Origin: Mongoliibacter sp.
GTDB lineage: Bacteria > Bacteroidota > Bacteroidia > Cytophagales > Cyclobacteriaceae
NCBI RefSeq assembly: GCF_007692705.1
Contig: NZ_REBN01000218.1
Span: 1-33,279, forward strand
Direction: 5' to 3'
DNA length: 33,279 nucleotides
Shown here: piece by piece, positions 24,288-32,778 of the stretch
How the letters are laid out: every line of letters begins with the position of its first letter
How positions within the stretch are numbered: the stretch's first letter is position 1
Notes under the pieces: model-generated
What the model was told of the DNA's origin: nothing
The model's database searches: none
The model's input: the letters and a program-made list of their open reading frames with translations, nothing else
Position numbers and translations under genes: made by a program

Positions 24288-24301
24288 TCAATAGCTTTAC
24301 C

Positions 24302-24338
24302 AAAAAAACCAGCAGGATATCTTCTGCTGGTTTTTTTT
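24302..24338. terminator. bidirectional terminator between convergent genes
   Basis: CCAGCAG (24309-24315) pairs with CTGCTGG (24324-24330), flanked by seven A (24302-24308) and eight T (24331-24338), so a strong hairpin with a T tract forms on both strands. It serves the S41 peptidase transcript on plus and the SRPBCC/hydrolase transcript on minus. The stop codon of the minus gene overlaps the T run. Confidence 0.88.
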
Positions 24339-24879
24339 ATTTGCTTTCAAGAATCTCCTTAAGGTTTCTGAGACCGTTTTCAAAATCGTCACCTATCATT
24401 TTTTCCATGTCCATTACCAATAGCATGGCATTCATGGGGTAGGCCATGTGTCCATCAAAACCCCAACGAACTTTGGTGCTAAAATTAGTGGCTTCTTCAA
24501 ATTCCATAAATGCTTTGTCATTTGCCTCAAAAGGCTCAAAAAAGCGCAAAGCATAATCAATCCTTTTGCCATCTTCAATAGCTATAATTTCTTGCTCACC
24601 TGAACCCACATCCGGGTTTTCACTTCTCCAAAAAGAAACAAAACCAACTTCGCCATCAGTGCCTCTATACTCTTTGTGCATATCAGGATCCTTCAGCGCC
24701 CATTTACTATAGTTGTTTTGGTTCTTCAACATTTTGGTGTAAGCGTAGACCTCCTGGTGTGGCCTTTCTATTGTCACTTCTTTGACCACGGAATAATCAC
24801 GCGGAACAAAAAGTGCTGCTATAAATGGAATGACTAAAATAATAGCCAACACGATACCAGCAATTTTTAGAAATTTCAT
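24337..24879 (-). CDS. SRPBCC-family protein with N-terminal membrane anchor
   Basis: A 180-residue protein. Residues 1-26 form one hydrophobic helix (FLKIAGIVLAIILVIPFIAALFV), probably a membrane anchor. The rest fits the SRPBCC (START/Bet v 1-like) helix-grip fold: KEVTIERPHQEVYAYTKMLKNQNNYSKWALKDPD at the start, then strand pairs (GEVGFVSFWRSE, KRIDYALRFFEPFEANDKAFMEFEEA, TKVRWGFDGHM) and a long C-terminal helix (MEKMIGDDFENGLRNLKEILE). Such domains bind hydrophobic ligands; several Bacteroidota proteins of this form are labelled polyketide cyclase-like without proven activity. It lies 42 bp after the alpha/beta hydrolase stop, so it is probably the second gene of that transcript. Ligand unknown. 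Confidence 0.85.
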   Translation of the reverse strand: MKFLKIAGIVLAIILVIPFIAALFVPRDYSVVKEVTIERPHQEVYAYTKMLKNQNNYSKWALKDPDMHKEYRGTDGEVGFVSFWRSENPDVGSGEQEIIAIEDGKRIDYALRFFEPFEANDKAFMEFEEATNFSTKVRWGFDGHMAYPMNAMLLVMDMEKMIGDDFENGLRNLKEILESK

Positions 24880-24921: not shown

Positions 24922-25737
24922 TCAAAATATTGGCATTGTATTTCCATATTTTTGAACAAAATCAAAAGTATCTTCAACTAAAGTATTATGGCCACTTTGA
25001 AGCTCAAAGTTTTTGAGGTTGGGGATTTTTGAACTGAAACGTTCCAGGTTGTCAGGAGTGATCATTTTATCATATGTTCCAGTGACCAAAAAAATTGGTT
25101 GTTGGTGCATACGTGCCATTTTGATGATGTAGGATAAATCCGTTTGCATAGGTTTAAAAACATTCCAGGTAAAATAGACCTGTGCCCTTTTGGTTCGGGT
25201 TTGCATTTGGAACTTGACAAATTTCACCAAGCTACTTTGTAGGAACCCCAGTCTATGCAATATATCTATGGTTTTAAAAAAGCGGTCAGGGTGGAATACA
25301 ACATGTTTAAATATCCTGTTCAGGATTCCTGGAAAGGTAGCCATATTATACCAAAAACCTGTTTTGATACCATCCGGAGCCATGAGTAGCAATGATTGAA
25401 CGTAATTTGGGAAAAGTTCATAAGTGATTAAGCTGAACTTTCCACCCATAGAATAACCTATGAGGTGAAATTCTTTGAAGGATTCTTCAGCCATTAATTT
25501 TAAAAGAACGTCTCTCCAGATTTCTTTGGTCAGCTTTTTTGAAATTGACTTCCAGCTGCTTTGCCCATGGTAAAAAATGTCTATCAGTAAGAAGCTTTGG
25601 TGTTCTTTACGAATTTGTAAAAATGGGTAATAGATCTTACGGTTTTGTCCGAAACCATGGAAAAACAAGTGCACATCAGGACCTTTTCCATGTCTTTCAT
25701 AAGCTAACTTGCCCAAGGCGGTTTCTAAAAACTTCAT
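24922..25737 (-). CDS. alpha/beta hydrolase
   Basis: A 271-residue hydrolase with no signal peptide, so cytosolic. The oxyanion motif is HGFG (residues 27-30), the nucleophile is Ser96 in GYSMGG, and the acid and base are Asp223 in GTYDKMI and His250 in SGHNTL. The order and spacing fit the esterase/lipase-like alpha/beta hydrolase superfamily. A basic, aromatic cap region (about 125-190: WYNMATFPGILNRIFKHVVFHPDRFFKTID) suggests a lipid-like or membrane-associated substrate, but that is inference. It is the first gene of a probable two-gene minus-strand unit with the SRPBCC protein. Confidence 0.9.
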   Translation of the reverse strand: MKFLETALGKLAYERHGKGPDVHLFFHGFGQNRKIYYPFLQIRKEHQSFLLIDIFYHGQSSWKSISKKLTKEIWRDVLLKLMAEESFKEFHLIGYSMGGKFSLITYELFPNYVQSLLLMAPDGIKTGFWYNMATFPGILNRIFKHVVFHPDRFFKTIDILHRLGFLQSSLVKFVKFQMQTRTKRAQVYFTWNVFKPMQTDLSYIIKMARMHQQPIFLVTGTYDKMITPDNLERFSSKIPNLKNFELQSGHNTLVEDTFDFVQKYGNTMPIF

Positions 25738-26023
25738 ATGTATGTATTTTTTCTTTCAATAGTCATTACCTGTCATAGGTATTGGAATGGAATCATTGAT
25801 AGCGATATTGATCGGAACTTTCAGGTGTGTCTCAATTTCATATCAGGCCTTGGTTTTCTGCCTATAAAGCTACCGGAATTTTTATTTGTGGCACTTTTAT
25901 TCTAGAAACTTTTAGTCCTTATGTTCGATCATGAACAAATAATATTTCTTTTTGGTCATTTCTGAACAGTGGGACAGTATTTCATTTTAGTAAGTATATA
26001 AAATAAGAAAAAAAATTTCAATA

Positions 26024-26067
26024 AAAACTTAGGAAACTTTGAACTTTCATAAAGTTTCTCAAGTTTT
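26024..26067. promoter_or_regulatory. nested palindromic operator, probably for the TetR-family repressor
   Basis: Two inverted-repeat pairs share one centre (26045.5). The inner pair is GAAACTTT (26033-26040) with AAAGTTTC (26051-26058); the outer pair is AAAACTT (26024-26030) with AAGTTTT (26061-26067). Fifteen of seventeen arm positions pair, around a 10-bp spacer. The element covers both promoter boxes of the tetR/efflux operon, the expected place for an autorepressor site. Sequence symmetry is seen directly; binding by the TetR protein is inferred. Confidence 0.65.
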
Positions 26068-26068
26068 G
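26038..26068 (+). promoter_or_regulatory. promoter of the tetR-RND efflux operon
   Basis: TTTG (26038-26041) is followed after 19 bp by AAGTTTTG (26061-26068), which matches the Bacteroidota TAnnTTTG box at five of six fixed positions. The predicted transcript would start near 26074-26076, leaving a leader of about 14 bases before the TTG start of tetR. Both boxes lie within or at the edge of the nested palindrome. Confidence 0.6.
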
Positions 26069-26088
26069 TGTTCTAATCGAAAATTAAT

Positions 26089-26712
26089 TTGGAGACGAAA
26101 GAAAAAATAATTGAAACTGCGACGGAGCAATTTATGCGCTTCGGAGTGAGATCGGTCACCATGGATGATATAGCCAGACAGGCAGGTGTATCCAAAAAGA
26201 CCATCTATCAGGAGTTTTCGGATAAAAACCAACTTGTGTATGAGACCTTTCAAGCAGCCATTGAGAGTGATAAATGTTCCATGGAGAGGTTTCCCCAAAA
26301 GAAAATAGGGGTCATTGAGCACTTGGTACAATTGTCCCAATACATGCGTGAGCGATTTGCAAATATCAACCCATATATTCTTAACGAAATCCAAAGGTAT
26401 TTCCCACAGAGTTGGCAATTGTTTGAAGATTTTAAAAAGGATTTTGTACTCAAGGAGATCATCGAACTGTTGGATTCAGGCAAAGAGCAGGGGTATTTCA
26501 GACCGGAGATCAACTCAGAGATCTTGGGACTTTTAAGATTGGAACAAATGATGTTAAGTTTTGATCCGATCAAATTTCCACCCTCCAAATACAATATTGT
26601 AGATCTTCAGCTGGAAATCTTTGAGCATTTTCTTTATGGGATTTTTACAGAGAAAGGAAAAGAAGCATACCAAAACCAAAAAAATTCAAAGCAACATGAA
26701 AACCACAATTAA
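26089..26712 (+). CDS. TetR/AcrR-family transcriptional regulator
   Basis: A 207-residue one-component regulator, a likely local repressor of the efflux genes that follow. The N-terminal helix-turn-helix is clear: KIIETATEQFMRFGVRSVTMDDIARQAGVSKKTIYQEFSDKNQLVYETF, residues about 6-54. The C-terminal ligand-binding domain (about 60-200) is all-helical and divergent, so the inducer cannot be named. The start is TTG at 26089: an in-frame stop lies at 26074, no ATG or GTG lies between, and the first internal ATG would remove the first HTH helix. The gene ends inside the next gene: the TolC-like start codon lies 17 bp before its end, coupling expression of the two. A palindrome covers the promoter, consistent with autorepression. 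Its C-terminus is Lys/Gln-rich (KEAYQNQKNSKQHENHN). Confidence 0.92.
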   Translation: METKEKIIETATEQFMRFGVRSVTMDDIARQAGVSKKTIYQEFSDKNQLVYETFQAAIESDKCSMERFPQKKIGVIEHLVQLSQYMRERFANINPYILNEIQRYFPQSWQLFEDFKKDFVLKEIIELLDSGKEQGYFRPEINSEILGLLRLEQMMLSFDPIKFPPSKYNIVDLQLEIFEHFLYGIFTEKGKEAYQNQKNSKQHENHN

Positions 26713-28054
26713 ACAGAAATCAGGTATCGCAGCATGCCTGTTTGCGGTTTTTGCAGTCTTTAGTACCCAGGCACAGCAGGTAGTGGAATTATCACTGGAA
26801 GAAAGCCTTCGCTATGCATTGGAGAATAATGTGGATGCAAAAAATGCGCAATTGGAAACACTGATTGCAAAAGCCACAGTTGTTGAAAGGAGATCTGAAG
26901 GTCTTCCTCAGATTAATGCTAATGTAGACCTAACTTATAATGCTGCCATTCCGGTAGTATTTGTTCCGAATGAAGGTCCTTTTGCAGACCCCAGTGTTGA
27001 ATTGGATGTATTACCTTTAAGATTTGGGGTTCCTCTAAGTTCTTCAGTTGCAATACAAGCAACTCAAATGATTTTTGACGGGTCATATTTTGTAGGATTG
27101 CAGGCGGCCAAAACATATAAAATGTTAACTGAATATGACAGACTCAAAACTGAAATTGACGTCAAGGAAGGTGTTAAAAAAGCATATTATTCAGTATTGG
27201 TTAATGATCAAAGAAGGCAGTTGATAGAAGCAAACCTTGAAAGATTGGAAGTATTGTTGAGAGAGACTACTGAGCTCTACGAATCAGGATTTGCAGAAAA
27301 GTTGGATGTTTCTAGGGTGAAAGTTCAACGTAACAATATTAAAACAGAACTGGATAAAGTTTTGGCAGCTACAATGATCAGTGTCGAGCTTTTTAAATTA
27401 CAAATCGGACTTCCCGGAAATCAGGAAGTGTACTTGACAGAATCATTGGAGGATCTTAATACCCGCCTTGATGTGGAAGAGCTAATGGGAATGGATGGAC
27501 AGAGAAGGGTCGAAGTTGATCAGATAGATACCAACCTTGATTTGGTTAGGCTAGATCTGAAAAATAATCAGGTACAATATATTCCGAGAATATCCGCTTT
27601 TGCTACCTACCAAAGAAATGCTGCAAGTGAGCGCATAGGAGATATCCTTCAAACAAACAGATGGTTTACTGGAGCTTTTATAGGTGGGTCCTTATCGATT
27701 CCTATTTTTGATGGCCTCGCCAAAAGTGCTAGGATACAACAAAATCGGGTGCAGATCAGGCAGCTTGAAAATCAGTCCCTTTTCATTGACCAAAATATTG
27801 AAGTGGAAAAGTTTCAGTCTAAGGCAAATCTTCAAAATAGTCTTTCAGCATTGGCTGTACAGGAGGAAAATATGGAACTGGCACTAGAAGTCTTTGAAAT
27901 GACCAAGATCAAATACCAGGAAGGTGTTGGGTCCAATCTTGAAGTAGTAGAGGCAGATTCTGCCTTGAAAGAAGCAGAAACCAATTATTTTTCAGCCCTC
28001 TACGATGCCTTGATTGCGAAAGTCGAATTAGAAAAAGCATTGGGTATTTTATAA
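26696..28054 (+). CDS. TolC-family outer membrane efflux protein
   Basis: The outer-membrane channel of a tripartite pump, 452 residues from the ATG at 26696, which begins a good Sec signal (MKTTIKQKSGIAACLF then STQAQ). The mature protein has the two-fold OEP repeat: LSLEESLRYALENNVDAKNAQLE at the first helix, and a second half with FIGGSLSIPIFDGLAKSARIQQNRVQIR. Long coiled-coil helices follow (NIEVEKFQSKANLQNSLSALAVQEENMELALEVFEMTKIKYQEG), and the end carries VGSNLEVVEADSALKEAETNYFSALYDALIAKVELEKALG, the family C-terminal signature. A longer reading from 26621 lies inside tetR and places 25 charged residues before the signal peptide, so I reject it. It overlaps tetR by 17 bp and is followed by the adaptor gene after 30 bp. 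Confidence 0.95.
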   Translation: MKTTIKQKSGIAACLFAVFAVFSTQAQQVVELSLEESLRYALENNVDAKNAQLETLIAKATVVERRSEGLPQINANVDLTYNAAIPVVFVPNEGPFADPSVELDVLPLRFGVPLSSSVAIQATQMIFDGSYFVGLQAAKTYKMLTEYDRLKTEIDVKEGVKKAYYSVLVNDQRRQLIEANLERLEVLLRETTELYESGFAEKLDVSRVKVQRNNIKTELDKVLAATMISVELFKLQIGLPGNQEVYLTESLEDLNTRLDVEELMGMDGQRRVEVDQIDTNLDLVRLDLKNNQVQYIPRISAFATYQRNAASERIGDILQTNRWFTGAFIGGSLSIPIFDGLAKSARIQQNRVQIRQLENQSLFIDQNIEVEKFQSKANLQNSLSALAVQEENMELALEVFEMTKIKYQEGVGSNLEVVEADSALKEAETNYFSALYDALIAKVELEKALGIL

Positions 28055-28084: not shown

Positions 28085-29212
28085 ATGAAAACTTATTTTC
28101 CAATATTAATGAGTGCCGTGATTTTGATGGCCGTATCCTGTGGCCAAAAAGATGAGGTCGCAGCAAAAAAAGAAAGTCTGGAATCCAAAAAGAAAGAAAT
28201 GGCCTCTCTGAGGACTTCAATCGAAGCTTTGGAAAAGGAAATTGCCGAGTTGGATCCTGAATTTGGAAGGCAAAACAGAAAGTCAGTCTTAGTCTCTACT
28301 TTAGACCCAAAAGTAGGTCAGTTTGATCATTTTGTAGAAGTGACCGGCTCTGTATTATCCAGAAAAAATGTAAACATCAGCGGTGAAGTATCCGGGAGAG
28401 TCAATGAAATCACAGCGGTAGAAGGCATGCAGGTAAAAGCAGGTCAAGTTCTGGCCAGAGTTGATTCTGAGTCTATCCTGAGAAATATGGACGAAGTGGA
28501 GAAGCAACTTGAATTGGCCAATACCATATTTGAACGGCAGGAGAGATTATGGGACCAACAAATAGGTACTGAATTGCAGTACTTAGAAGCCAAAAATAGA
28601 AAAGAAACCCTGGAAAAAAATCTTGCTAGTCTGAAGACGCAGGAGTCAAGGACTGTTATCAGGGCTCCTTTCAATGGAACTGTGGAATCAGTTGTTATTC
28701 GCTTGGGCGAATTGGTTCAGCCAGGAACTCCTTTATTTCAATTTATTGGGGATAGCGACTTGTTTATCGAAGCTGACTTGTCAGAAAGATATGTAGGGGT
28801 AGTAGGTAGAGGGGATTCTGTAGAAATTACTTTTCCTTCTATTGATACAAACCTTAAAACCAAGGTATCTGCTGTAGGAGGTATAATCAATCCCAATAAC
28901 AGGACTTTTAAAGTAGAAGTGTTTCTTCCGAGAATGCAGAATGTAAAGCCTAATATGATCTCAGTTTTGAGAATAAAAGACTACGAAAGCGAGAATGCGG
29001 TAACAGTACCTAACTACCTTATTTTACAGGATACCAAAGGGGATTATGTCTTTACCGTCGAGGATGGGAAGAGCCGTAAGAGGTATGTCAAAAGGGGAAG
29101 GACCTATAGGGAAATTACAGAAATAATTGAAGGTCTTGATGGAACCGAAACTTTGGTGGACAAAGGTTTCAGGGAAGTAGGAGATGGTTTCAATGTAAAC
29201 ATTGCCCAATAA
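28085..29212 (+). CDS. RND efflux periplasmic adaptor subunit (HlyD/MFP family), lipoprotein
   Basis: The adaptor that bridges the inner-membrane pump and the outer-membrane channel, 375 residues. It has a lipoprotein signal with Cys19 (VILMAVSC), then a predicted coiled coil at about 28-60 (KKESLESKKKEMASLRTSIEALEKEIAELD) that is longer than in AcrA and lies before the barrel domain. The lipoyl half-motifs are SGEVSGRVNEITAVEGMQVKAGQVLARVD (about 99-127) and RAPFNGTVESVVIRLGELVQPGTPLFQFIG, with the alpha-hairpin between them. Beta-barrel and membrane-proximal parts follow to the end. It starts 30 bp after the TolC-like gene and its stop is 2 bp before the pump gene. Substrate unknown. Confidence 0.95.
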   Translation: MKTYFPILMSAVILMAVSCGQKDEVAAKKESLESKKKEMASLRTSIEALEKEIAELDPEFGRQNRKSVLVSTLDPKVGQFDHFVEVTGSVLSRKNVNISGEVSGRVNEITAVEGMQVKAGQVLARVDSESILRNMDEVEKQLELANTIFERQERLWDQQIGTELQYLEAKNRKETLEKNLASLKTQESRTVIRAPFNGTVESVVIRLGELVQPGTPLFQFIGDSDLFIEADLSERYVGVVGRGDSVEITFPSIDTNLKTKVSAVGGIINPNNRTFKVEVFLPRMQNVKPNMISVLRIKDYESENAVTVPNYLILQDTKGDYVFTVEDGKSRKRYVKRGRTYREITEIIEGLDGTETLVDKGFREVGDGFNVNIAQ

Positions 29213-29214
29213 TT

Positions 29215-32200
29215 ATGAGCCAGGTAGAAGATAAAAATAAAGGTATAATCCGGGAGTTTGGGCTAAGTTCACTTTCAGTTAATAATCAGACTTCAGTTGT
29301 AATTCTGGTCTTGATCATATCTGTTTTGGGGATGTTGGCCTATAGGACAATGCCTAAGGAAAGTTTTCCTGAAATCGTCATACCTACAGTATATGTAGGG
29401 ACTTCATACCCGGGCAATTCTCCTGTGGATATGGAGAATTTGATTACCAGGCCTATAGAAAAGGAACTGAAATCAATTAATAACATTAAAGATATCAAGT
29501 CCACATCTGTACAGGATTTTTCTTCTGTTGTTATTGAATTCAACCCTGGAGTGGAGATTACCAAGGCTTTACAGGATGTAAAAGATGCTGTAGATAAGTC
29601 AAAGAGTGAATTGCCCACTGACTTAGACAGAGATCCTGACGTATTGGAAATCAATACCTCGGATTTCCCTATCATGAATGTGAATATTTCAGGTAATTAT
29701 TCCGAGCAGGAATTGAAGAAATTTGGAGAATTCCTGGAGGATGAAATAGAGAAGCTTCCTGAAGTTTCCAAGGCTGAGCTAAGGGGAACAGTAGAAAGAG
29801 AAATACGGATCGACGCGGACATTTACAAGATGGAAGCATTGGGCGTGGCATTCAGCGATATTTCTGATGCAATTTCCCAAGAAAATGTCACCATATCAGG
29901 AGGGAATATTCTAGCAGGAGAGTTTAGACGTTCTTTGAGGATTACAGGAGAATTTACACATCCTGATGAAATCAAAGATATTATTATCAAAACTGAAGAA
30001 AACAAGATTGTTTATCTCGCAGATGTAGCGGAAGTTTCAGATACCTATAAGGAAAGGACCAGTTATGCCAGGAGCAATAAGCTTCCTGTAGTAACGGTCA
30101 ATGTCGTTAAGAGGAGTGGAGAAAACCTTTTGGATGCTGCGGATAAAATCAAAGATATTATCGATAAGGCCAAGATCAACAGGTTTCCTGAAGATTTGGA
30201 GATATCGATTACCAATGACCAATCAAAAACGACAAGATCTCAGGTGAATGACTTGGAGAACTCGATCATATTTGGGGTTATTTTAGTGGTTTTGGTTTTG
30301 ATGTTTTTCTTAGGCTTTAGGAATGCACTATTTGTAGGGATAGCGATACCGCTTTCTATGTTTATTTCTTTTCTGATCTTGAATGCGCTTGGTATTACTT
30401 TAAATCTAATGGTGCTCTTTGCTTTGATTTTGGCATTGGGGATGTTGGTTGATAATGGAATTGTGGTGGTAGAGAATGTTTACCGCTTGATGCAAGAAGG
30501 GAAGTCACCTATTAGGGCAGCAAAAGAAGGAGTGGGTGAAGTAGCCTGGCCTATCATTACATCCACTGCGACCACATTAGCAGCATTTATGCCATTGGCA
30601 TTTTGGGATGATATCATTGGGGAGTTTATGAAATACCTTCCCATCACATTGATCATCGTTTTATCTTCTTCCCTTTTTGTAGCCTTAGTGGTCAATCCAG
30701 TGTTGACGTCTCTGTTTATGAAGGTTCAGGATGTGGAAAAGGACAAACCAAAAAGAAAGAACATCATGATAGCCATTGTGCTAATGGTGATGTCTGGTAT
30801 CAGCTACTTGGCAGGCTCCATTACTTTCGGGAATCTATTTGCACTTGCTGCTTTATTGACGATTTTCAATGTATTTGTACTAAGAGGAGCGATCAAATGG
30901 TTTCAGAATGTGTTTTTGGTCAACTTGGAAAACTTCTATGAAAAAACCCTGAAATTTGCCTTAAGAGGTAAACATCCATACCTGTTTTTTGGTGGAACAG
31001 TATTGCTGTTGTTTTTAAGCTTGGTATTGCTTGGTGTGAGGTCTCCAAAAGTCTTATTCTTCCCTGACAATCAGCCTGCACTTGTCAATGTGTTTATAGA
31101 AAACCCTATTGGTACGGATACTGAAGCTACCAATGATTTTATGAAACAAATGGAGGATGAGTTGACAGATGTTTTGGCACCTTATGAGAATATCATAGAA
31201 GCGATCATTACGCAGGTAGGTGAAGGAACTGGCGATCAAATGTCCAGTATGGGAAATACGCCTACACCTCACAAGGCAAAAGTAACCATCAGCTTTGTTG
31301 AATATCAATTCAGACAGGGGGTCAATACCAATCGGGTGATGGAAGAAATCAGGGATTTGGTGGAAAAATATCCTGGAGTCTTGGTAACTGTCGACAAACA
31401 GACCGCTGGACCTCCAGTAGGTAAGGCCATAAATATCGAGGTCAGTGGGGAGAATTTTGAAGAACTTATCGCATATACCAATAGGTTTAGAGAGTTTCTA
31501 TCCAATGCGAACATTCCAGGTATTGAGGAGCTTAAATCTGATCTGGAGTTAGGCAGTCCGGAAGTGGTATTGAATATTGACAGAGAAAAAGCCAGGAGGT
31601 TTGGTCTTTCTACCTCTACTATCGCCAATGAACTGCGAACTGCATTATTTGGGTTGGAAGTATCCAAATTCAAAGATGGAGAGGATGATTACCCAATTCA
31701 ACTTCGTCTGAAAGATGAATATCGATATGACCTGACTTCACTGATCAATAAAAAAATCAACTTCCGGGATAAATTTGGCAATAAGAAAGAAGTGCCAATT
31801 TCCGCGGTTGCAGACTTGGAATACGGATCCACATACGGTTCTGTGAAAAGAAAGGACTTGGATAAAGTTATTACCGTTTTCTCCAATGTAACGGATGGAT
31901 ACAACCCGACTGAAATCAATAATCAGCTTAAAGCTTTGGCAGCTGACTTTGAAGAAATGGAAGGGATTACCATCAAATTTACGGGAGAACAGGAAGAGCA
32001 GGCCAAATCCACAGAATTCTTGATGAGAGCGCTTTTCATTGCGGTTTCTGTTATTTTCCTGATCATTGTGGCACAATTCAATTCGGTAACGACTCCATTT
32101 ATAATTCTGGCCTCTGTGGTGCTGAGTACCATTGGTGTATTCTTGGGCTTGGTAATTTTCAATATGGATTTTGTGGTCATTATGACCGGTATTGGGATCA

Positions 32201-32622
32201 TCTCGCTCGCTGGCGTGGTCGTCAATAATGCCATCGTATTGATAGATTATACCAACTTGGTAAGAGAGAGAAGGAGGGAAGAACTCAACACTCCTGAAGA
32301 TGAATACTTGCCATATAATGAATTATTGGACAGTATAGTACTTGGAGGAAAAACGAGGTTAAGACCGGTGTTGCTGACAGCCATCACTACGGTGTTGGGA
32401 CTGATACCTTTAGCTATTGGAATGAATATCAACTTCGCTACTTTACTGTCTTCTTTTGATCCTCAATTCTACGTAGGAGGGGATAATGCAGATTTTTGGG
32501 GCCCGATGGCGTGGACTGTAATATTTGGGTTAACCTTTGCTACTTTCCTTACGTTAGTGATTGTACCTGTCATGTATTTGATGGCAGATAAATTAAACAT
32601 GTTGATTCGTAGAATGAAATAG
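29215..32622 (+). CDS. RND-family efflux transporter, inner-membrane permease (AcrB-like)
   Basis: The proton-driven inner-membrane pump, 1135 residues against about 1040 for AcrB. It has the usual two-fold layout: TM1 (VVILVLIISVLGMLAYRTMP), porter domain, TM2-TM6 block (about 350-503), second porter half (from about 608) and the final TM block (about 940-1130). The proton-relay helix has one Asp (Asp413 in GMLVDNGIVVVENV); AcrB has two at this place. On TM10 the AcrB lysine is replaced by Asn (Asn1004-Asn1005 in GVVVNNAIVLIDY), common in this branch of RND pumps. An additional segment at about 516-558 (IMIAIVLMVMSGISYLAG and FALAALLTIFNVFVLRGA) adds two probable TM helices between TM6 and TM7. 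Substrate class cannot be set from sequence; drugs, bile-like or lipid-like compounds are all possible. The operon ends at the terminator 37 bp downstream. Confidence 0.95.
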   Translation: MSQVEDKNKGIIREFGLSSLSVNNQTSVVILVLIISVLGMLAYRTMPKESFPEIVIPTVYVGTSYPGNSPVDMENLITRPIEKELKSINNIKDIKSTSVQDFSSVVIEFNPGVEITKALQDVKDAVDKSKSELPTDLDRDPDVLEINTSDFPIMNVNISGNYSEQELKKFGEFLEDEIEKLPEVSKAELRGTVEREIRIDADIYKMEALGVAFSDISDAISQENVTISGGNILAGEFRRSLRITGEFTHPDEIKDIIIKTEENKIVYLADVAEVSDTYKERTSYARSNKLPVVTVNVVKRSGENLLDAADKIKDIIDKAKINRFPEDLEISITNDQSKTTRSQVNDLENSIIFGVILVVLVLMFFLGFRNALFVGIAIPLSMFISFLILNALGITLNLMVLFALILALGMLVDNGIVVVENVYRLMQEGKSPIRAAKEGVGEVAWPIITSTATTLAAFMPLAFWDDIIGEFMKYLPITLIIVLSSSLFVALVVNPVLTSLFMKVQDVEKDKPKRKNIMIAIVLMVMSGISYLAGSITFGNLFALAALLTIFNVFVLRGAIKWFQNVFLVNLENFYEKTLKFALRGKHPYLFFGGTVLLLFLSLVLLGVRSPKVLFFPDNQPALVNVFIENPIGTDTEATNDFMKQMEDELTDVLAPYENIIEAIITQVGEGTGDQMSSMGNTPTPHKAKVTISFVEYQFRQGVNTNRVMEEIRDLVEKYPGVLVTVDKQTAGPPVGKAINIEVSGENFEELIAYTNRFREFLSNANIPGIEELKSDLELGSPEVVLNIDREKARRFGLSTSTIANELRTALFGLEVSKFKDGEDDYPIQLRLKDEYRYDLTSLINKKINFRDKFGNKKEVPISAVADLEYGSTYGSVKRKDLDKVITVFSNVTDGYNPTEINNQLKALAADFEEMEGITIKFTGEQEEQAKSTEFLMRALFIAVSVIFLIIVAQFNSVTTPFIILASVVLSTIGVFLGLVIFNMDFVVIMTGIGIISLAGVVVNNAIVLIDYTNLVRERRREELNTPEDEYLPYNELLDSIVLGGKTRLRPVLLTAITTVLGLIPLAIGMNINFATLLSSFDPQFYVGGDNADFWGPMAWTVIFGLTFATFLTLVIVPVMYLMADKLNMLIRRMK

Positions 32623-32720: not shown

Positions 32721-32756
32721 TTTGTCCAAGAGAGCTACTGAAATTTTGTATTTTTG
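32721..32756 (+). promoter_or_regulatory. possible promoter of the UpxY-like gene
   Basis: The -7 type box TATTTTTG (32749-32756) is a perfect match to TAnnTTTG and lies 22 bp before the ATG at 32779. The nearest TTTG upstream (32721-32724) is 24 bp away, longer than the usual 19-21, so the upstream half is doubtful. Confidence 0.35.
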
Positions 32757-32778
32757 AATCTAAATTTAATTTTTGAGT

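Follow-up and report, generated by a model that had tools for sequence, protein, structure and literature searches.

A conserved nested palindrome over the promoter of a Bacteroidota efflux operon, the predicted operator of its TetR-family repressor

In the sections of the literature compared here, several TetR-family proteins come close to the system analyzed in this work. QacR, CgmR, Ms6564, and CprB bind as a dimer of dimers on operators of 22 to 32 bp (PMC4150764), and solved complexes place the two recognition helices of a single TetR-family dimer 31 to 39 Å apart (PMC4150764, PMC10636190). BmeR5 of Bacteroides fragilis is described as the local repressor of bmeABC5, where it binds the intergenic region (PMC4790292), while PsrA of Pseudomonas recognizes G/CAAAC N2-4 GTTTG/C (N5 at one site) and regulates its own gene (PMC3510223). 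For the TetR-TolC-adaptor-permease operon FJOH_RS06575-RS06590 of F. johnsoniae, the cited account reports that deletion of TolC lowers antibiotic susceptibility and that TolC mutations were gained in four of five coevolved lines (PMC10197871). The promoter consensus of Bacteroidetes is stated to be TTTG near −33 and TAnnTTTG at −7 (PMC7366714). Among the literature matches listed, we found neither a paper on the operator presented below, which does not prove it to be unpublished, nor a pump operator sequence for Bacteroidota, and the compared portions of a flavobacterial transcriptome study (PMC9723704) contain no such motif.

The window (i.e., the whole stretch of DNA that was analyzed, 33,279 nucleotides from Mongoliibacter sp.) contains a gene for a predicted TetR-family repressor, followed by the genes of an RND-type efflux pump:

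26089..26712, + strand: tetR, predicted repressor, TTG start; TetR_N (PF00440), E 2.9e-14
26696..28054, + strand: TolC-like outer membrane efflux protein; PF02321, E 9.7e-48
28085..29212, + strand: HlyD/RND periplasmic adaptor; PF16576, and TIGR01730 above cutoff
29215..32622, + strand: RND permease; PF00873, E 1.9e-189

The regulator possesses the N-terminal TetR helix-turn-helix (PF00440, 53 bits against a cutoff of 24), and its AlphaFold2 model (mean pLDDT 91.8) adopts an all-helical TetR fold along its full length, with 3crj as the best fold match (Z 17.2, rmsd 2.7, 181 residues). As is often seen in TetR-family repressors, a palindromic candidate operator lies at its own promoter, as judged from the sequence. 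The closest relatives of the regulator among organisms with names were found in Cognataquiflexum, Aquiflexum, Lunatimonas, Pleomorphovibrio, and Algoriphagus, which fits the Cyclobacteriaceae orthologs that had been named in an earlier note on this DNA.

The candidate operator is built from two pairs of boxes, which are interleaved with the two putative promoter boxes (alignment columns refer to the 51-locus alignment described below):

26024..26067, no strand: putative operator, nested palindrome, centre 26045.5, located by inverted-repeat search and conservation
26025..26028, + strand: outer left box AAAC, columns −7 to −4; C at −4 in 76%
26032..26040, + strand: inner left half-site GGAAACTTT, columns 0-8; AAAC 100%
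26038..26041, + strand: −33 promoter box TTTG, overlapping the inner left half-site
26051..26059, + strand: inner right half-site AAAGTTTCT (consensus AAAGTTTCC), columns 19-27; GTTT 100%
26061..26068, + strand: −7 promoter box AAGTTTTG (consensus TAnnTTTG), overlapping the outer right box
26063..26066, + strand: outer right box GTTT, columns 31-34, common to the −7 promoter box

The repeat search returned two arms of 17 nt, at 26024-26040 (AAAACTTAGGAAACTTT) and 26051-26067 (AAAGTTTCTCAAGTTTT), which are complementary at 15 of 17 positions (88%) across a loop of 10. The inner 9-base arm and the outer AAAC/GTTT pair share the centre 26045.5, and the inner site spans 28 bp and the whole site 44 bp. 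The earlier note had described two pairs of inverted repeats around one centre, with 15 of 17 arm positions paired, lying over the TTTG and TAnnTTTG-like boxes just upstream of tetR. This description was accurate: The arms are located as claimed, and the coordinates place TTTG and AAGTTTTG, which has one mismatch to TAnnTTTG, within the palindrome at a distance of 19 bases. It is the best inverted pair of its kind within the 351-nt intergenic gap between a divergent hydrolase gene and tetR, and a 15/17 pairing with a loop of 0 to 20 was reached by 2 of 1000 dinucleotide-preserving shuffles of this intergenic region. A 15/17 pairing also occurred at six other placements in the window (four of which are one hairpin near 24300), and the palindrome by itself is therefore only moderately unusual, such that symmetry alone is not decisive. 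The strong evidence comes instead from conservation across genomes.

Three further elements of the window were recorded alongside. A strong A/T-flanked hairpin is located between two convergent genes at 24299-24340 and is probably a terminator common to both; a lone half-site AGAAACTTT, possibly due to chance, is found at 25904-25912, ~120 bases upstream of the operator; and a second exact TTTG-N19-WAnnTTTG lies at 32745-32775, at the window's end, where a NusG-domain gene begins (32773).

We aligned the regions upstream of orthologous tetR genes, as the earlier note had proposed. From 59 relatives obtained by the regulator search and follow-up stretches, five distant paralogues (L056-L060) were dropped, leaving 54 loci, and 51 of these displayed GGAAACTTT-N10-AAAGTTTCC at a score of at least 14/18 and a spacer of exactly 10. 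The misses were one locus with a spacer of 11 (L032) and two without a clear site (L051 and L054), and one of the 51 (L048) was weak, with 14/18 at −212; across 590 shuffled upstream regions, the best score was 15/18, which occurred once. Throughout the 51 loci, the inner arms kept AAAC and GTTT without exception, with GGAAAC and GTTTCC as the most conserved columns, while the letters of the loop varied freely and the 10-base centre was without symmetric conservation. A separate scan of 80 loci with organism names yielded the best match at spacer 10 in all 80, with AAAC and GTTT intact in 79, a TolC gene on the same strand in every case, and a site-to-tetR distance of 56.5 bases (median; range, 35 to 145). 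The sets of 54 and 80 overlap in part (e.g., L137/L004), and their counts are hence not independent. We also collected 155 distinct operators, which were chosen for AAAC and GTTT at spacer 10, and the invariance of these letters is accordingly claimed from the 51-locus alignment only. The site was found even beyond the orthologs: In L055, whose regulator is just 24% identical to that of the window, a site scoring the full 18/18 lies 59 bp upstream of tetR, and the operator thus predates the ortholog group. Overall, much of Bacteroidota has this site, at a constant spacing, ahead of this repressor gene, with both nested levels conserved; the site is unusually well conserved, while ordinary in kind.

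The co-occurrence of site and regulator in whole genomes was evaluated with a blind pattern, GRAAACT-N14-AGTTTYC, which was present in 109 of 395 phylum genomes, the regulator profile (at 1e-15) being present in 169. For the 97 genomes of the same class or closer (window's own left out), we counted 69 with both, 0 with the site only, 12 with the regulator only, and 16 with neither (Fisher p 4e-11, where kinship is uncorrected and independence thus overstated). Of the 12 regulator-only genomes, eight had a variant of the site with a spacer of 10 (L110, L111, L113, L115, L116, L117, L121, and L129), and the other four (L220-L223) had no site at the thresholds used. In these 97 class genomes, a reversed control pattern matched 28 places versus 98 for the true pattern, which indicates that some of the single matches are due to chance. 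The regulator adjoined the site in 27 of the 30 pattern loci shown, and the blind scan thus recovered related regulators, as anticipated by the earlier suggestion that the motif would be transferable for finding related pumps. The quality of the half-sites mattered: All 66 perfect GGAAACT-N14-AGTTTCC sites among the matches listed (48 genomes; no full census) were near the regulator, 40 of them at 83 bp or less and the remaining 26 at distances of 613-771 bp, and sites with imperfect half-sites (GAAAACT or AGTTTTC) were often away from it (L075, L093, and L102). Similarly, among 20 genomes chosen outside the class, all pattern-positive, a related tetR stood at the site in 12 of the 20 loci shown, which were exactly the 12 with perfect half-sites (imperfect, 0/8). 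The window's own genome holds one strong site. The relaxed pattern gave one other match there (C185:9567, locus L072), at which tblastn found no related regulator or pump gene; this match is likely due to chance, and we rejected a wider regulon in this genome.

The sequence, its conservation, the fixed spacing, the overlap with promoter boxes, and the association with the regulator form the basis on which we read the palindrome, with a probability of about 0.93, as the operator of the TetR-family protein from the gene at 26089, which would block the core promoter and repress its own gene along with the pump genes. The operator assignment made in the earlier note thus appears strongly supported by phylogenetic footprinting and by the near-exclusive co-occurrence with tetR. 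In the proposed mechanism, the repressor would dock on the inner half-sites GGAAACTTT and AAAGTTTCC and gain extra contacts to the outer AAAC/GTTT boxes, presumably as two dimers (probably one per arm). Once bound, it would cover the promoter from before the −33 box through the −7 box and would thereby keep the main (housekeeping) sigma factor off, resulting in autorepression of tetR and in repression of the downstream TolC-HlyD-RND genes, until a ligand, probably a pump substrate, would release it.

Other explanations of the palindrome fare less well. Use of the site by a different regulator of the cell is scarcely credible: The pattern was absent from all 16 class genomes without this TetR protein (0/16), and the window's own genome has its single strong site here. 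Equally far-fetched is an RNA hairpin, i.e., an attenuator or terminator in the leader, which an inverted repeat near the start codon might bring to mind: The loop varies freely, no terminator-like site was found at 25700-26200, and the palindrome sits over the promoter boxes and hence upstream of the predicted transcript start. It is also very improbable that the site is nothing but a promoter, with −33 and −7 boxes in an A/T-rich chance symmetry and no repressor involved. TTTG-N19-AAnnTTTG does lie inside the palindrome, and in 101 of the 155 distinct operators, namely those with the −7 box in its usual register at 5/6 or better (shifted in 16, unclear in 38), this box and the outer right box fall together. 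However, conservation is highest in the columns GGAAAC and GTTTCC, which are no promoter boxes and are retained at spacer 10 even in operators with a displaced −7 box, and the perfect sites among the matches listed are confined to the surroundings of the regulator family.

A more restricted version of the operator reading confines the operator to the inner palindrome and takes the outer level for a lineage-specific accident together with the −7 box. We consider this unlikely, though well worth weighing, since the outer left C (column −4) is found in 27/27 of the near group and in only 55% of the 128 others, and since the outer arms displayed no covariation within sequences (own 3.76 versus cross 3.61 pairs of 7, P 0.11). 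Against it, 55% in the distant set is still five times the flank frequency of 11%, and the left window pairs best with the right one when placed in the predicted register (3.76/7 versus 1.7-2.6 for slid windows). Furthermore, in the 54 operators with a shifted or unclear −7 box, G31 is kept in 81% and 89% and T32 in 88% and 92%, respectively, which argues that the outer right box is held by something other than the promoter. Covariation, which was not significant, was set aside as proof of outer-arm pairing; its absence is what one would expect of fixed letters that are read by a conserved protein. We therefore favor an operator in which both levels appear to be real, the inner nearly invariant and the outer left weaker outside close relatives.

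How many dimers would such an operator hold? Measured from centre to centre, 19 bp separate the inner arms and 35 bp the outer pair. At a DNA rise of 3.4 Å per bp, the former distance amounts to ~65 Å, as compared to the 31 to 39 Å reach of one dimer, and one usual dimer would thus hold neither both inner arms nor both outer boxes, which makes two dimers likely, as in QacR, CgmR, Ms6564, and CprB. The earlier idea that the nested levels could bind two repressor dimers is thus supported in modified form only, for the number and not for one dimer per nested level, which does not fit because the outer pair at 35 bp would be beyond the reach of one dimer. The ideal arm AAACTTTGGAAACTTT is a rough palindrome by itself, and pairing within an arm amounted to a mean of 3.18 and 3.74 of 8 at centres 0.5 and 26.5 (other centres, 1.3 to 3.2; common dyad, 3.77). 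These scores would favor one dimer per arm, as a hint and not as proof, and the two dimers probably occupy an arm each rather than a nested level each. Two overlapping, QacR-like dimers may fit as well, though no symmetry is conserved in the 10-base centre. We also tried the half-site spacing of DarR, which, in the portion of the source compared, does not match the conserved letters.

Additional sites were seen in one genus of the same class (g68), where four genomes (L214-L217), apparently Flavobacterium-like, each carry another one or two copies of the site, ~700-800 bp upstream of tetR. They precede a gene with a YceI domain in L214 (the L216 product is similar by eye), and this YceI-family gene lies between tetR and a polyprenyl synthetase gene, its other neighbor. 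Before this gene, the operator stands once or as a pair about 51 bp apart (L214 1306-3165; L215-L217, with sites 55-795 bp upstream of tetR). Operator pairs were also seen outside the class, there 40-41 bp apart and close to four helical turns (L234 1500-1568; G069, G074, and G440). The YceI gene and its polyprenyl synthetase neighborhood hint at a lipid or isoprenoid ligand. Because the operator also stands before this gene, we put forward, as a speculative and in its entirety quite unlikely proposal, a phylum-wide TetR branch that senses a polyisoprenoid-like lipid and uses a four-box operator (AAAC/GTTT, spacings 9-17-9), with two dimers side by side on one pseudo-palindromic arm each across a fixed 10-base gap.

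The motif can serve as a DNA signature by which one large group of Bacteroidota regulators of RND pumps is specifically recognized, with a single search pattern recovering the regulator, the pump, and the extra YceI target in Flavobacterium-like genomes, and its fixed spacing and two nested levels constitute a testable case of TetR dimer pairing on DNA. As far as the compared sources describe them, the nearest known systems are the dimer-of-dimers TetR proteins and BmeR5, with PsrA near by its half-site letters only. With QacR, CgmR, Ms6564, and CprB, the present system shares a long operator (44 bp, of which the inner site takes 28), and with QacR and CgmR the predicted control of drug efflux; the fold of the TetR model resembles DNA-bound QacR (1jt0, Z 14.6) and CprB (4pxi, Z 14.5) at a sequence identity of only 13-16%. 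Unlike in those four, the 10-base centre is not symmetrically conserved here and the boxes are spaced 9-17-9, and a side-by-side geometry of two dimers at a 10-base gap seems to be absent from the solved complexes described in the literature compared. AcrR-, MtrR-, and CmeR-type repressors of RND pumps are alike in role and gene neighborhood (MtrR-DNA 7jnp, Z 15.5), whereas the window's TetR scores far below the cutoffs of the NCBIfam AcrR and MtrR models (35.4 versus 271 and 33.9 versus 280 bits). PsrA is a TetR-family protein that has, in the account cited above, the half-site letters GAAAC/GTTTC and autoregulation, but its half-sites are 2-5 bases apart as compared to 16 here (GGAAAC-N16-GTTTCC), and its regulon differs. 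BmeR5, from the same phylum, is likewise a TetR protein adjoining an RND pump, a likeness of role and position drawn from an account without operator sequence. Last, the F. johnsoniae operon FJOH_RS06575-RS06590 has, by its published description, the gene order of the window's operon and may encode the orthologous pump.
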